Origin: Acidimicrobiaceae bacterium | GTDB lineage: Bacteria; Actinomycetota; Acidimicrobiia; Acidimicrobiales; Ilumatobacteraceae | Direction of reading: 5' to 3' | Assembly (NCBI GenBank): GCA_947467375.1 | Contig: CANIHL010000003.1 | Coordinates: forward strand, 1 to 64,000 | Length of the DNA: 64,000 nt | Part shown: positions 47,443 to 54,394 of the stretch, piece by piece | Numbering within the stretch: position 1 is the first letter of the stretch | Layout: each line of letters opens with the position of its first letter | Program-made: the position numbers and the translations under genes | Notes under the pieces: model-generated | The model's input: only the letters and a program-made list of their open reading frames with translations | What the model was told of the DNA's origin: nothing | Databases searched by the model: none

Positions 47443-49341
47443 CTAGATGGACTTGAGAAATTGCGCCACCTCTGAGAATTCAATGGTGCGTTTCATTGGT
47501 GGCAACGTGGAGACAAGTTTTTTCCCGTATCCCTTAGTGGCAAGTCTCGGATCAAGAATCGCTACCACACCTGTGTCTTTGCGCGACCGAATCAATCGAC
47601 CAGCAGCCTGAGCAAGTTGCGTAGCTGCAAGTGGAATATCAATCTCGCTAAATGAAGTTTTTCCAATTTCGTCGCGTCGGGCACTCAGCAATGGATCATC
47701 CGGACGTGGGAACGGGATTTTGTCAATGACAACAAGGCTGAGGGTTTGTCCAGGAACATCAACGCCTTGAAAGAATCCAGCGGTTGCAAACAGACAAGAC
47801 GATTCCTCTGCAGCGAATGCATCAACGAGTGCCATTTTCGGCAAGTCATCTTGACGCCAAACTTTGTATTCAAGACGCCTTGACATCTCATCCGCTGCGG
47901 CGTGCATTGCGCGATAAGTGGTAAATAGGGCCAGGGTTCGGCCTTGTGCTGCATTGATTAACTTTTCTAATTCACCATGTACCGCGTCATCTCGTCGCGG
48001 ATCATTTGGTAATGGCAGATGCTTTGCACAATACAAAATTGCTGAATTCTCGTAATCGAAAGGGCTTCCAACATCAATTGCATCAACTTCATCTTCCTCG
48101 AGGCCCACGCGAGCAGGCATTGCGAGCGGAATCGTGGCACTCGTGAGGATTGCTGTTCGCTTTGACCACACACCGCTATTCAGAGAAGGGCCAACGTGGA
48201 GAGGCGCAAGTTCCAATACGGGCCTGTCTTTGCTTCCGCTCACGAATGCAACGGTTCGTGAACCCGCGGTGAGTGAGCCATCGATGACATCGATCAATCG
48301 ATTGCTGAGCATTTGACCCCTCAATATTCGTTGTTTCGCTGATTCGTCATTGCTGGAGATCGCTTTCAATCCAGAAACGGCTTCATCAATTTTGAGTCGC
48401 AACCGTGCAAGTACATCTTGGATGTCGTCGGGAAGTGGGAGGGGTACGCGCTTGTCGACGTCGCCTGCGATGTATCCACCAAATTCGGAAGCCAATTGTT
48501 GCAGCGATCCGGACAGAGCGTCATCTCGCACGATTGAGCGCAGTGCACCAATGACGTGTTGGATGCTTCCCGGACTGATTGCCATGCTGACTGAAGCGCT
48601 CATCACATCTTCAAGCTGATGGGCCTCATCAAAAATGACTACATCGTGTTCTGGAAGAAGCGCCCCATCGGTCGCGACGTCCAAGCCATAAATATGGGTG
48701 TTGACAACAATGACGTCAGCGATAGATGCGGAATCTCGAGCACGTTCTGCAAAACACGTTTCTCCTGACGGACACCTACTTGCGCCAGGACATTCATCGC
48801 TTCCAATACTGACGTGCCGCCATGCTGCATCACGTGGGCTCCACGACAAATCCCCTGAATCGCCAGTGTTCGTGGTTTCCGACCAAGCAACAAGCTTGTC
48901 GATGTCGGACTTCACTTGAGTGCTGAACTCTTGTAGATCAAGTTTGTGTTGCTTCGGCTCTTGAATTTCTGCGATGCGTTGTGCGCATAGATAATTGTTT
49001 CGGCCCTTCAGAACTGCCCATGTGATTTCGCGTCCGATAAGTGGTGTCAATGCAGAGGACAACACTGGTAGGTCGTGTTTGGCGAGTTGATCTTGCAAGG
49101 CCTTCGTATATGTTGAAACCACGACGCGTTTGCCTGAAGCAATTGCAGGCACGAGATAACCCAATGTTTTGCCGGTTCCTGTTCCTGCTTGCACGATGAG
49201 ATGTCGTTCATTGTCAATCGCGTCTGCAATTGCTCTCGCCATCGTCACTTGTCCAGAACGCGCCTCAACATTGGGAAGCGTGTCTACGACTGCCTGAAGA
49301 AGATCTACGACATCATGTTCGTGTTGCGCTTTAGCTGGCAT
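47443..49341 (-). CDS. DinG/XPD-like superfamily 2 helicase
   Basis: 632 aa from the ATG at 49341 (an in-frame ATG at 49359 lies deeper in uppS). Walker A QAGTGTGKTLGYL, DEAH box IFDEAHQLED, VVSTYTKALQDQL (Ia), QAAGRLIRSRKDTGVVAILDPR (VI), and an Fe-S-type Cys set (NYLC, CPGASRCPSGETC). This is the DinG/YoaA/XPD architecture, 5'-3' unwinding linked to repair. It overlaps the uppS end by 11 bases and is probably cotranscribed with uppS. Confidence 0.95.
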   Translation of the reverse strand: MPAKAQHEHDVVDLLQAVVDTLPNVEARSGQVTMARAIADAIDNERHLIVQAGTGTGKTLGYLVPAIASGKRVVVSTYTKALQDQLAKHDLPVLSSALTPLIGREITWAVLKGRNNYLCAQRIAEIQEPKQHKLDLQEFSTQVKSDIDKLVAWSETTNTGDSGDLSWSPRDAAWRHVSIGSDECPGASRCPSGETCFAERARDSASIADVIVVNTHIYGLDVATDGALLPEHDVVIFDEAHQLEDVMSASVSMAISPGSIQHVIGALRSIVRDDALSGSLQQLASEFGGYIAGDVDKRVPLPLPDDIQDVLARLRLKIDEAVSGLKAISSNDESAKQRILRGQMLSNRLIDVIDGSLTAGSRTVAFVSGSKDRPVLELAPLHVGPSLNSGVWSKRTAILTSATIPLAMPARVGLEEDEVDAIDVGSPFDYENSAILYCAKHLPLPNDPRRDDAVHGELEKLINAAQGRTLALFTTYRAMHAAADEMSRRLEYKVWRQDDLPKMALVDAFAAEESSCLFATAGFFQGVDVPGQTLSLVVIDKIPFPRPDDPLLSARRDEIGKTSFSEIDIPLAATQLAQAAGRLIRSRKDTGVVAILDPRLATKGYGKKLVSTLPPMKRTIEFSEVAQFLKSI

Positions 49342-50023
49342 GGACCAACTTGAGTGCATTATCTAATTCGTGTGCGTCGAAGTCTGGCCATGTTCGTTCG
49401 GTGAAGTACACCTTTGCGCCCATGATTTGCCATAAGAGAAAATTGGAAATTCGCGATTCTCCAGAGGTGCGCACGACTACATCGACAGGTGGTAGTTCTG
49501 GTGCGTACAGGTTGTTTGCAATTTCGTGCGATGTTATGTCGAGCCCAGAATGTTGCTTAGTGCGTGCATGTTGGGCTGCTCGGAGTAACTCGGCACGACT
49601 TCCATAATCAAAGGCCACAGTCAGCACCATGCCTGTGTTGTGTGCGGTGTCTTCTATAGCTTGCTGAATTGCACGTTGTATAAAAGCCGGGGTTTTGGAT
49701 CCCGGTTCATCGAAAGGCCGTCCGATCCATTGAATGCGCACATTGTTGGCATTGAGCTCCGCGATTCGGCCAAAGAGGCGTTTGTGCAGGGAGAGGATGT
49801 GCTTTACTTCGGCTGGTGGCCGCACCCAGTTCTCGGTTGAGAAGCCGAAAACAGTCAGCCATCCGACGTTTCGTGCGGCGCACACACGCACGACTTCGGC
49901 CAAGTTATCTTCACCCGCTGTATGGCCTTCAGTGCGAGGAAGGCCGCGTCGTTTTGCCCATCGTCCATTGCCGTCCATGATGCAAGCGATATGGACTGGA
50001 GATTCGGGATTCGCCTGTTCCAT
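49331..50023 (-). CDS. uppS: Isoprenyl transferase, catalytic UppS-type subunit
   Basis: 230 aa from the ATG at 50023. The cis-prenyltransferase motifs are intact in the first two thirds: IMDGNGRWAKRRG with the catalytic Asp, GH, FGFSTENW and RTSGESRISNFLLWQ. The end is unusual. The Glu of the usual YAELYF stretch is Lys (GAKVYF), and the protein stops at LDNALKLVHAS without the RxRRFGG tail found in homodimeric UppS. No frameshifted remnant of the tail is visible past the stop. The product (C50/C55 or short-chain) cannot be told. It is divergent from the pseudo-subunit gene. Confidence 0.92.
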   Translation of the reverse strand: MEQANPESPVHIACIMDGNGRWAKRRGLPRTEGHTAGEDNLAEVVRVCAARNVGWLTVFGFSTENWVRPPAEVKHILSLHKRLFGRIAELNANNVRIQWIGRPFDEPGSKTPAFIQRAIQQAIEDTAHNTGMVLTVAFDYGSRAELLRAAQHARTKQHSGLDITSHEIANNLYAPELPPVDVVVRTSGESRISNFLLWQIMGAKVYFTERTWPDFDAHELDNALKLVHAS

Positions 50024-50039
50024 TCCGAACACCTTACTG

Positions 50040-50642
50040 ATGCAGGCAGTGATGGCGTGCGACAATAGTGGTGTGGCTGACGGTTCTTCATTGCGACATG
50101 TGCTTGTTGTTGGGGGATCGCTTGATCAATGGAAGGCCATGTCCGTTTCTGATTGGTCTCTGTATGTCGCAACCTTGCGATCATCGGTCGAACATGTTGG
50201 AGCGCAGTGGTTAACGGTGTATCCGTATTCTGGTATTCCAAACGTCAGTGACGACGGTGATCTCGTTCGCAAGATTTCAGAATCATGTAATGCGTCGCTC
50301 GTTAACGGAAAAGTGATTATTCGAGGAAAGACGTCTGTCGTTATTGATGTCTGTGCGGATGGGCAGCAGCGGTTTGTGCGTGCTGTTAATGGCATGTCGA
50401 CGGAAAAGATCACCGAGAAGAATTTGGCAAGTGCAATTTTGGATCCAGCATCAAGCGAACCGGATCTTGTGGTGATCTTTGGAGACCCAACGCAACTACC
50501 GCCATCGCTTGTATGGGAACTTGCCTATAGCGAGCTGGTGTATCTCAACACGCAGTGGCCTCACTGCAACAGTGAAGACATTGAGTTGGCCATTAATGAC
50601 TTCCAGCGCAGGGATCGTCGCTTTGGTGGCGTTGACTCATGA
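50040..50642 (+). CDS. NgBR/Nus1-like non-catalytic cis-prenyltransferase homologue
   Basis: 200 aa (ATG 50040; ATG 50052 and GTG 50073 are alternatives; the 49734 ORF start reads into uppS). It aligns with UppS through LTVYPYSG, ITEKNLASAIL, PDLVVIFGDPTQLPPSLVWE, AYSELVYL and DFQRRDRRFGG, but the active-site DGNGRW is GGSLDQW and RTSGE is IFGDP. The metal-site Glu (SEL) and the terminal RxG are kept. That set of losses and retentions is like the NgBR/Nus1 subunit of eukaryotic heteromeric enzymes. Its stop overlaps recO by four bases. Confidence 0.75.
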   Translation: MQAVMACDNSGVADGSSLRHVLVVGGSLDQWKAMSVSDWSLYVATLRSSVEHVGAQWLTVYPYSGIPNVSDDGDLVRKISESCNASLVNGKVIIRGKTSVVIDVCADGQQRFVRAVNGMSTEKITEKNLASAILDPASSEPDLVVIFGDPTQLPPSLVWELAYSELVYLNTQWPHCNSEDIELAINDFQRRDRRFGGVDS

Positions 50643-52697: not shown

Positions 52698-53003
52698 ATG
52701 AGCAAAGTTGCAGTAGCAGTGAAGTTGAGAATCAAAGCTGGTCAGCGAGATGCGTTTACCGAAGCGGTAAAACCAGGACTAGCAACAGCACAAGGCGAGT
52801 CGGAGACACAGACGTACATTTTCCACCACGATGCGCTTGACGCTGATGTTGTGTGGTTCTACGAGTTGTACGCAAACCAAGATGCGATGAATGCGCACAT
52901 GGGTAGTGACGCATTCAAAGCTTTCTCCAAGTCGCTCGGCGAATTTGTTGATGGTGCACCTGAATTCAACTTGCTTACGCCGATTGGCGGCAAGGGACTC
53001 TAA
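52698..53003 (+). CDS. Antibiotic biosynthesis monooxygenase (ABM) domain protein
   Basis: 101 aa with AGGAGG upstream of the ATG. Dimeric ferredoxin-like ABM fold: VKLRIKAGQRDAFTEAV, TQTYIFHHDALDADVVWFYELYANQDAMNAHMGSDAFKAF. Members are quinol or haem oxygenases or have no known activity. It lies between glyS and trpC, with no obvious functional link. Confidence 0.88.
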   Translation: MSKVAVAVKLRIKAGQRDAFTEAVKPGLATAQGESETQTYIFHHDALDADVVWFYELYANQDAMNAHMGSDAFKAFSKSLGEFVDGAPEFNLLTPIGGKGL

Positions 53004-53006
53004 GCC

Positions 53007-53783
53007 TTGTATCTCGACAAGATCATCCAAAGCCATCGCGAATCTGCTTCGCATGACCAAAGAAACCTGGATGATCTTGTTGAGCAAGCGTTCGTACTTC
53101 CGGCTACTCGCGGGTTTGGTGAGCGGTTAGTTCGCGGCTCGCGCGATCGGCTTTGTGTTATTGCCGAGATCAAGCGCAAGTCACCTTCGAAAGGTGTTCT
53201 CCACGAGGGACTCGATGCCTCTCGCATTGCCGCGTTGTATGAACAGGGTGGCGCGTCTTGTTTGTCGGTGCTGACCGATGAGCATTTCTTTGGAGGCTCG
53301 GTTGAAGATTTACAGATCGCCCGAGCGAATACTGCACTTCCAGTTATTCGTAAAGACTTCACGGTTTCTGAATTTGATGTGGTTGATGCCCGATTGATGG
53401 GATCCGACTGTGTATTGCTGATCGCAGCTGCGCTAAGTGATGATGAGCTCGCACGATTTTTCGACCTAGCAACACATATCGGGCTTGATGTTCTTGTTGA
53501 AACTCATGACGAGAATGAATTGGAACGAGCTCTCAACATTGGTGCGAGCATCGTTGGTGTGAATCAACGTGACCTCATCACATTCGAAGTGGATCATGCA
53601 CGCGCAGAACGAATGGCCGCACTGATTCCCCCAACCGTGGTTCGTGTCGCTGAATCTGGTGTTCGCGATCTTCATGACGCTCGACGCCTGCGCGATGCTG
53701 GATATGACGCAGTTTTGGTGGGTGAGTCCATTGTTACTGCCACCGATCCAGCTGCTGCAGTACGTGATTTGATGGTGGTGTAA
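53007..53783 (+). CDS. trpC: Indole-3-glycerol-phosphate synthase (TrpC)
   Basis: 258 aa from a TTG. VIAEIKRKSPSKGVL (catalytic Lys), VLTDEHFFGG, LPVIRKDFTVSEFDVVDARLMGSD, VGVNQRDL and VAESGV are the TrpC blocks of the TIM barrel. It closes the indole ring in tryptophan synthesis. The trpC-trpF-trpB-trpA order follows directly. trpE, trpG and trpD are not in the window. Confidence 0.97.
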   Translation: MYLDKIIQSHRESASHDQRNLDDLVEQAFVLPATRGFGERLVRGSRDRLCVIAEIKRKSPSKGVLHEGLDASRIAALYEQGGASCLSVLTDEHFFGGSVEDLQIARANTALPVIRKDFTVSEFDVVDARLMGSDCVLLIAAALSDDELARFFDLATHIGLDVLVETHDENELERALNIGASIVGVNQRDLITFEVDHARAERMAALIPPTVVRVAESGVRDLHDARRLRDAGYDAVLVGESIVTATDPAAAVRDLMVV

Positions 53784-53785
53784 CC

Positions 53786-54394
53786 ATGTTCGTGAAGATT
53801 TGTGGAATTACGAACGAACAAGATGCGTTACTTGCGGTTGCGTTAGGCGCTGATGCACTTGGTTTTGTGTTTGCGCCAAGCCCTCGTCAGATATCCCCTG
53901 CACTCGCTCGCGAAATTGTTAAACGGTTGCCCCCAGAAACGGTGACTGTTGGAGTGTTCCGCAACGAAACCCCTTCTCGAATTGTTGAAATTGTTAACGA
54001 AGCCCGACTGCAAGGTGCGCAGTTGCATGGCCATGAAACCGCAGCGATGACCGCAGAGGTTGCAACTAACGTGCGTTTTGTTATTAAGGCAGTGGTAGCA
54101 GGGTCACAGGATGCAACACATGCCAATGATTTCTCTGCGGATGCGATTCTGGTTGATGGTCTGCATCCTGGATCTGGAACTGCGTATGACTGGGAATTAC
54201 TGCAAGATATTCCGACAGATATTCGGTTGATGCTCTCAGGTGGGCTTACTCCTGAAAATGTTGGCGCGGGAATTATGCAGGTTCGACCTTGGGGTGTGGA
54301 CGTGAGCAGCGGCGTGGAAAAATCTCCTGGTCAAAAGGACGCTGTGAAATTGCGTCACTTCATTACAAATGCTCGAGATGCGGTGCTCGGCTAG
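53786..54394 (+). CDS. trpF: Phosphoribosylanthranilate isomerase (TrpF)
   Basis: 202 aa. [16 protein letters not shown] with the catalytic Cys, [32 protein letters not shown] with the catalytic Asp, and [10 protein letters not shown] for phosphate binding. It provides the substrate for TrpC. A dedicated TrpF is notable only because many actinobacteria use PriA instead. It begins three bases after trpC. Confidence 0.96.

Follow-up and report, generated by a model that had tools for sequence, protein, structure and literature searches.

A divergent gene pair of Ilumatobacteraceae as candidate for a bacterial heteromeric cis-prenyltransferase

The window, by which we mean the whole analysed stretch of 64,000 nucleotides, belongs to a MAG of 1.68 Mb (92% complete) from the Ilumatobacteraceae, a family of aquatic actinobacteria. 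It contains two divergently oriented genes, here called A and B, which both resemble cis-prenyltransferases of the UppS type (Table 1). Downstream of A lies a dinG-type helicase gene, and downstream of B lies recO followed by a class II tRNA synthetase gene that is glycyl-type by similarity. The best start of A is the ATG at 50023 with AAGGTG just 5' of it. The start of B had originally been placed at 50040, which we correct to the ATG at 50052 or the GTG at 50073. A promoter scan of the gap between both genes found no sigma-70 consensus. The 3' end of B overlaps the start of recO (50639) by 4 bp. On the other side the dinG-type reading frame begins within the 3' end of A (29-bp overlap, 49331-49359), so that the loss of the tail of A coincides with the dinG junction. 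Further along the window (52698-54394) we observed an antibiotic-biosynthesis-monooxygenase-domain gene directly upstream of the genes for indole-3-glycerol phosphate synthase and phosphoribosylanthranilate isomerase.

Table 1. Positions of genes A and B and of their relevant sequence features in the window.
Feature	Position	Strand	Basis
Gene A, catalytic-type cis-prenyltransferase (UppS-like), tail-less, 230 aa	49331..50023	-	PF01255, AF2, Foldseek, residues in 66/66 homologues
Lys204 of A at the E. coli E213 position	49412..49414	-	Residue alignment
RTSGE motif of A (R194, E198 of E. coli UppS)	49457..49471	-	Sequence; conserved 66/66
DGNGRW motif of A (D26, N28, R30 of E. coli UppS)	49958..49975	-	Sequence; conserved 66/66
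Intergenic gap between the divergent starts, 28 bp (49 bp with B start GTG 50073)	50024..50051	.	Sequence
Gene B, putative non-catalytic cis-prenyltransferase-like subunit, 196 aa	50052..50642	+	PF01255 C-terminal half, AF2, Foldseek, dN/dS
GSLDQW of B, degenerate counterpart of DGNGRW, D26 to Gly	50115..50132	+	Gly 59/59 B; W31 kept 59/59
Glu161 of B (E. coli E213 position)	50532..50534	+	Glu in 59/59 B
RRFGG, C-terminal RxG of B, proposed to enter the A active site	50616..50630	+	59/59 B, 0/66 A, 31/31 canonical; PMC7573591, PMC6450523

The product of A possesses the motifs DGNGRW, FSTENW and RTSGE, reads GAKVYF with a lysine at the E213 position of E. coli UppS, and ends in ALKLVHAS without an RxG. 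It matches profile positions 1-209 of 219 of PF01255 with 224 bits and passes the general NCBIfam uppS model TIGR00055 with 204 bits (cut-off 109.55). AlphaFold2 was run on the single chains of A and B with 40-row alignments. The model of A reached a pLDDT of 89.2, and Foldseek aligned it to bacterial UppS with a TM of about 0.86 at about 40% identity.

In the product of B, GGSLDQW replaces DGNGRW and VIFGDP replaces RTSGE, AYSELVYL is present, and the C-terminus reads RRDRRFGGVDS. Only its C-terminal half is matched by PF01255 (residues 104-192, profile 125-219, E = 4e-13), and with 36.5 bits it stays below the TIGR00055 cut-off of 109.55. The B model has a pLDDT of 89.6 and is aligned by Foldseek to E. 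coli UppS with a probability of 1.00, a TM of 0.54-0.63 and about 20% identity. The RRFGG end has low confidence (residues 192-194 below 50), as is to be expected for a tail that was modelled without its partner. Most of 40 B sequences compared share 31-49% identity with the window's B.

We counted the occurrence of catalytic residues in an alignment of 31 canonical UppS of the same phylum, 66 homologues of A and 59 homologues of B together with E. coli UppS, where the residues regarded as catalytic were chosen from general knowledge of the family and from PMC7573591. D26, N28, R30, R39, H43, S71, N74, R77, R194, E198 and S202 are present in 31/31 canonical sequences and in 66/66 A. All 59 B have lost R194 and S202 and carry a glycine in place of D26; S71 is by this alignment still present in 18 of them, and R200, an arginine in every one of the 66 A, is still Arg in 21. 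The C-terminal R242-x-G244 (RxG) is distributed the other way round, being found in all 31 canonical sequences and all 59 B and in none of the 66 A. Trp31 is retained in canonical UppS, A and B alike. The position of E213, which we take to be a metal-site residue of E. coli UppS, is a glutamate in all canonical sequences and all B, while the A sequences have mostly Lys (30), Ala (12) or Arg (11), the rest being others. Since Glu occurs here in four of the 66 A, the exchange is free of exceptions in its RxG half only. Neither A nor B thus unites the D26/R194-type residues and the RxG in a single chain. The DGNGRW and RTSGE of A and the RRFGG of B, which had been read from the window alone, recur in all 66 A and all 59 B, respectively. 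Chance or an assembly error as the origin of the split can be ruled out, as the same partition is seen in 66 A, 59 B and 80 loci of an independent collection.

Among 151 genomes of the window's family, tallied by hand from tables, 141 carry A or B and 138 of these carry both, the three without a visible pair being contig ends. Beside A/B, none of the 141 genomes has a complete UppS. A second complete UppS elsewhere in the genome, together with activity of the A product alone, had been named as evidence that would speak against the original prediction; the search of the window's genome for PF01255 returned no gene besides A and B. Likewise, A and B and no other UppS are present in the relatives G012, G019 and G038, each a single contig and 99% complete. 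A need for a carrier lipid is presumed from three PF00953 (MraY/WecA-type) genes in the window's genome. Complete UppS with neither A nor B was found in G011, G023, G057 and G110, of which the last counts for little because it is 72% complete and its recO was not found. The expected co-occurrence of a tail-less UppS with the paralogue is hence borne out. Genomes with apparently one of the two genes were rejected as real exceptions, since each of them is explained otherwise: B is cut by a contig end in G131, the contig of G139 ends there, G100 has unresolved bases (X residues) within B, and the fragment of G121 resembles the complete UppS of G023 and not A.

We also sampled 238 genomes of the class and phylum beyond the family; none of the matches listed for them forms an A/B pair, and the best matches are nearly all complete UppS. 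One suspected further two-gene case (G331/G346) was rejected as one protein matched in two pieces. A B-derived pattern scanned over 84,980 species genomes yielded 165 stretches, and in the best 80 of these 165, which we examined, B has its RxG and lies with recO in 80/80. The tail-less divergent A is in view at 73 of these 80 loci; of the other seven, four end at a contig edge and three have a further gene lying between B and the end of the contig. Most of the records are MAGs assigned to Ilumatobacteraceae or otherwise to Acidimicrobiia or Actinomycetota, and a few evidently bear wrong labels. Both genes are kept despite intervening DNA of 9.3 kb (G101), 2.1 kb (G117) and 0.6 kb (G098). Other DNA or genes also lie between A and B at L206, L195, L144, L151, L210 and L211, where the pair is otherwise kept, and an ORF of about 197 aa in this position is common to L195 and L206.

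In two other families of the phylum (f60 and f48), we further report second copies of a cis-prenyltransferase in which DGNGRW and RTAGE are intact and a C-terminal RxG is absent (L236-L240; genomes G312, G352, G330, G292 and G321). These genomes have a complete UppS beside the tail-less copy. Possibly such a copy dimerizes with the complete UppS and makes use of the tail of the latter, which could represent a second route to a heteromer.

A hint towards the origin of the pair arises from gene order. Sister families are organized as dinG(-) / uppS(+) recO(+) glyS(+) with a complete uppS, and the window's family as dinG(-) A(-) / B(+) recO(+) glyS(+), which indicates that B occupies the ancestral uppS slot. 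G011 shows the ancestral order with a complete UppS. In G023 (L201) and G057 (L198) the assembled dinG-recO interval contains neither uppS nor A nor B, and a complete UppS of another type is located elsewhere in the genome. It adjoins a gene that in G110, too, neighbours a similar UppS. In phylogenetic trees A and B each form one clade with a support of 100. Trees with canonical, second-paralogue and wider bacterial UppS were calculated for the source of A, and placing A with Acidimicrobiia was not rejected (p 0.156); by these trees A may have originated either by local duplication or by transfer. A single clade of A/B carriers in the host tree, with G011, G023 and G057 outside, was not rejected either (p 0.37), and we therefore do not claim that G023 and G057 lost the pair.

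The pairwise distances of A and B correlate at 0.71 (57 loci). After removal of recO and dinG a partial correlation of 0.45 is left, with a Mantel p of 0.0005, which is the floor of 2000 permutations. The controls given recO are close to zero (dinG-B -0.01, dinG-A -0.03). A and B co-vary beyond these two neighbouring genes, in agreement with the co-evolution anticipated in the original prediction, and shared rate effects can also be a source of such an excess. Both genes were compared in their substitution rates: dN/dS amounts to 0.04-0.05 in A and to 0.08-0.14 in B, and within B the dN of the interface/tail half is 2.5-4 times below that of the N-terminal half. B is under purifying selection, and its reading frame is intact in almost all sampled genomes.

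We propose, with a probability of roughly 0.88, that the products of A and B assemble as two different subunits into a single heteromeric cis-prenyltransferase, which makes a polyprenyl diphosphate carrier lipid, probably of the undecaprenyl type. Exact complementarity, obligate co-occurrence, mutual exclusion with a complete UppS and excess co-variation taken together make this by far the best explanation, and at the level of sequence they lend strong support to the single enzyme that had been predicted. Complex, activity, product and stoichiometry, as well as the evolutionary steps, are what we infer from these observations. A would bind Mg2+, the allylic diphosphate and isopentenyl diphosphate and would perform the chemistry. 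B would keep the cis-prenyltransferase fold and the half that forms the dimer interface, and its R-R-F-G-G could cross this interface into the active site of A, replacing the tail which a homodimeric UppS receives from its twin. Precedents for such a reach are R290-x-G292 of NgBR, which arrives at the DHDDS active site across the dimer interface (PMC7573591), and Arg292* of the counter-subunit of M. tuberculosis DPPS, which serves the active site of the partner (PMC6450523). The ancestor would have been a homodimeric UppS, of which B may be the gene still residing in the ancestral slot before recO with its active site lost, and A a second copy beside dinG with its tail lost.

A could in principle be a self-sufficient homodimeric UppS without need of an RxG, and B something separate, e.g. 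a protein that regulates A or one that is connected with recO, to which B is coupled by the 4-bp overlap. M. mazei MM_0014 provides a precedent as a cis-prenyltransferase that is a homodimer without RxG (PMC8131916). Weak activity is also shown by human DHDDS without its partner (PMC7573591), so that A alone could be partly active. We nevertheless regard this explanation as improbable, because B invariably holds on a cis-prenyltransferase fold what A lacks (RxG and Glu213, 59/59 each), because A is found without B at contig ends only, and because dN is lowest in the interface/tail half of B and the co-variation of A and B exceeds that with dinG.

It is still less probable that A and B form a heteromer in which B serves above all as a scaffold or as an allosteric partner and has a non-essential RxG. 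This may hold in yeast, whose Nus1 has no canonical RxG (PMC7573591), yet RRFGG is invariant in all 59 B while much of the remaining protein diverges. That B is a functionless, decaying remnant of the ancestral uppS is hardly credible: its slot and its lost active site would fit, but its low dN/dS, its almost universally intact frame and its invariant C-terminal motif speak against decay.

Compared to known systems, the proposed A/B enzyme is like the human DHDDS-NgBR (NUS1) pair in combining a catalytic chain without RxG with a catalytically dead chain that has it, and the human pair is a working heteromer (PMC7573591). The B profile matches NUS1 over most of its length. As a working analogy the designation "DHDDS-NgBR type" of the original prediction is justified; as a statement on ancestry it is not, as B is no NUS1 orthologue by descent but far closer to bacterial UppS (E. 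coli UppS E = 2e-22; human NUS1/NgBR E = 2e-5) and sits in the ancestral uppS slot. For the same two reasons the proposed heteromer probably originated independently of the eukaryotic one. Read from the sequence, A differs from DHDDS in being closer to bacterial UppS and in ending at the last helix without a DHDDS-like C-terminal helical extension, and B differs from NgBR in having no N-terminal hydrophobic or membrane segment. With homodimeric UppS (E. coli IspU, M. tuberculosis Rv2361c, the sister families) the pair shares the fold, the presumed chemistry and a C-terminal tail across the dimer interface, the difference being that the cis residues and the RxG are split over two genes and not joined in one chain.

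MM_0618/MM_1083 of M. mazei is described, as cited in PMC8131916, as an archaeal heteromeric cis-prenyltransferase for a C45-50 carrier. As far as that description goes, it resembles the proposed A/B enzyme in being two cis-prenyltransferase paralogues forming one enzyme for a glycosyl carrier lipid in a prokaryote, and differs in being archaeal. In a review, the bacterial enzymes are presented as homodimeric and heteromers are assigned to eukaryotes (PMC7839719), and in the open-access literature, to which our search extended and not to subscription papers, we found no report of a bacterial heteromeric cis-prenyltransferase. The pair apparently represents a known heteromer principle in a new domain of life and of independent origin.

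We consider it quite probable, though less so than the heteromer itself, that this bacterial heteromer has an independent origin within a single family of actinobacteria, where two UppS copies underwent reciprocal loss: the one in the ancestral slot would have turned into an NgBR-like subunit, and the added one would have become tail-less. The essential step that supplies the cell-wall lipid carrier would since then rely on an obligate enzyme of two genes. In such an essential and drug-relevant step, a heteromer from bacteria would be an independent replicate of the transition from homodimer to heteromer. Informative comparisons are offered by relatives with a single gene in the same slot, as G011 still has, and by G023 and G057 with neither gene. 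As a small and apparently soluble system A/B could be used to test the role of the RxG tail in trans, and it would provide a clean candidate case of complementary degeneration leading to an obligate complex.
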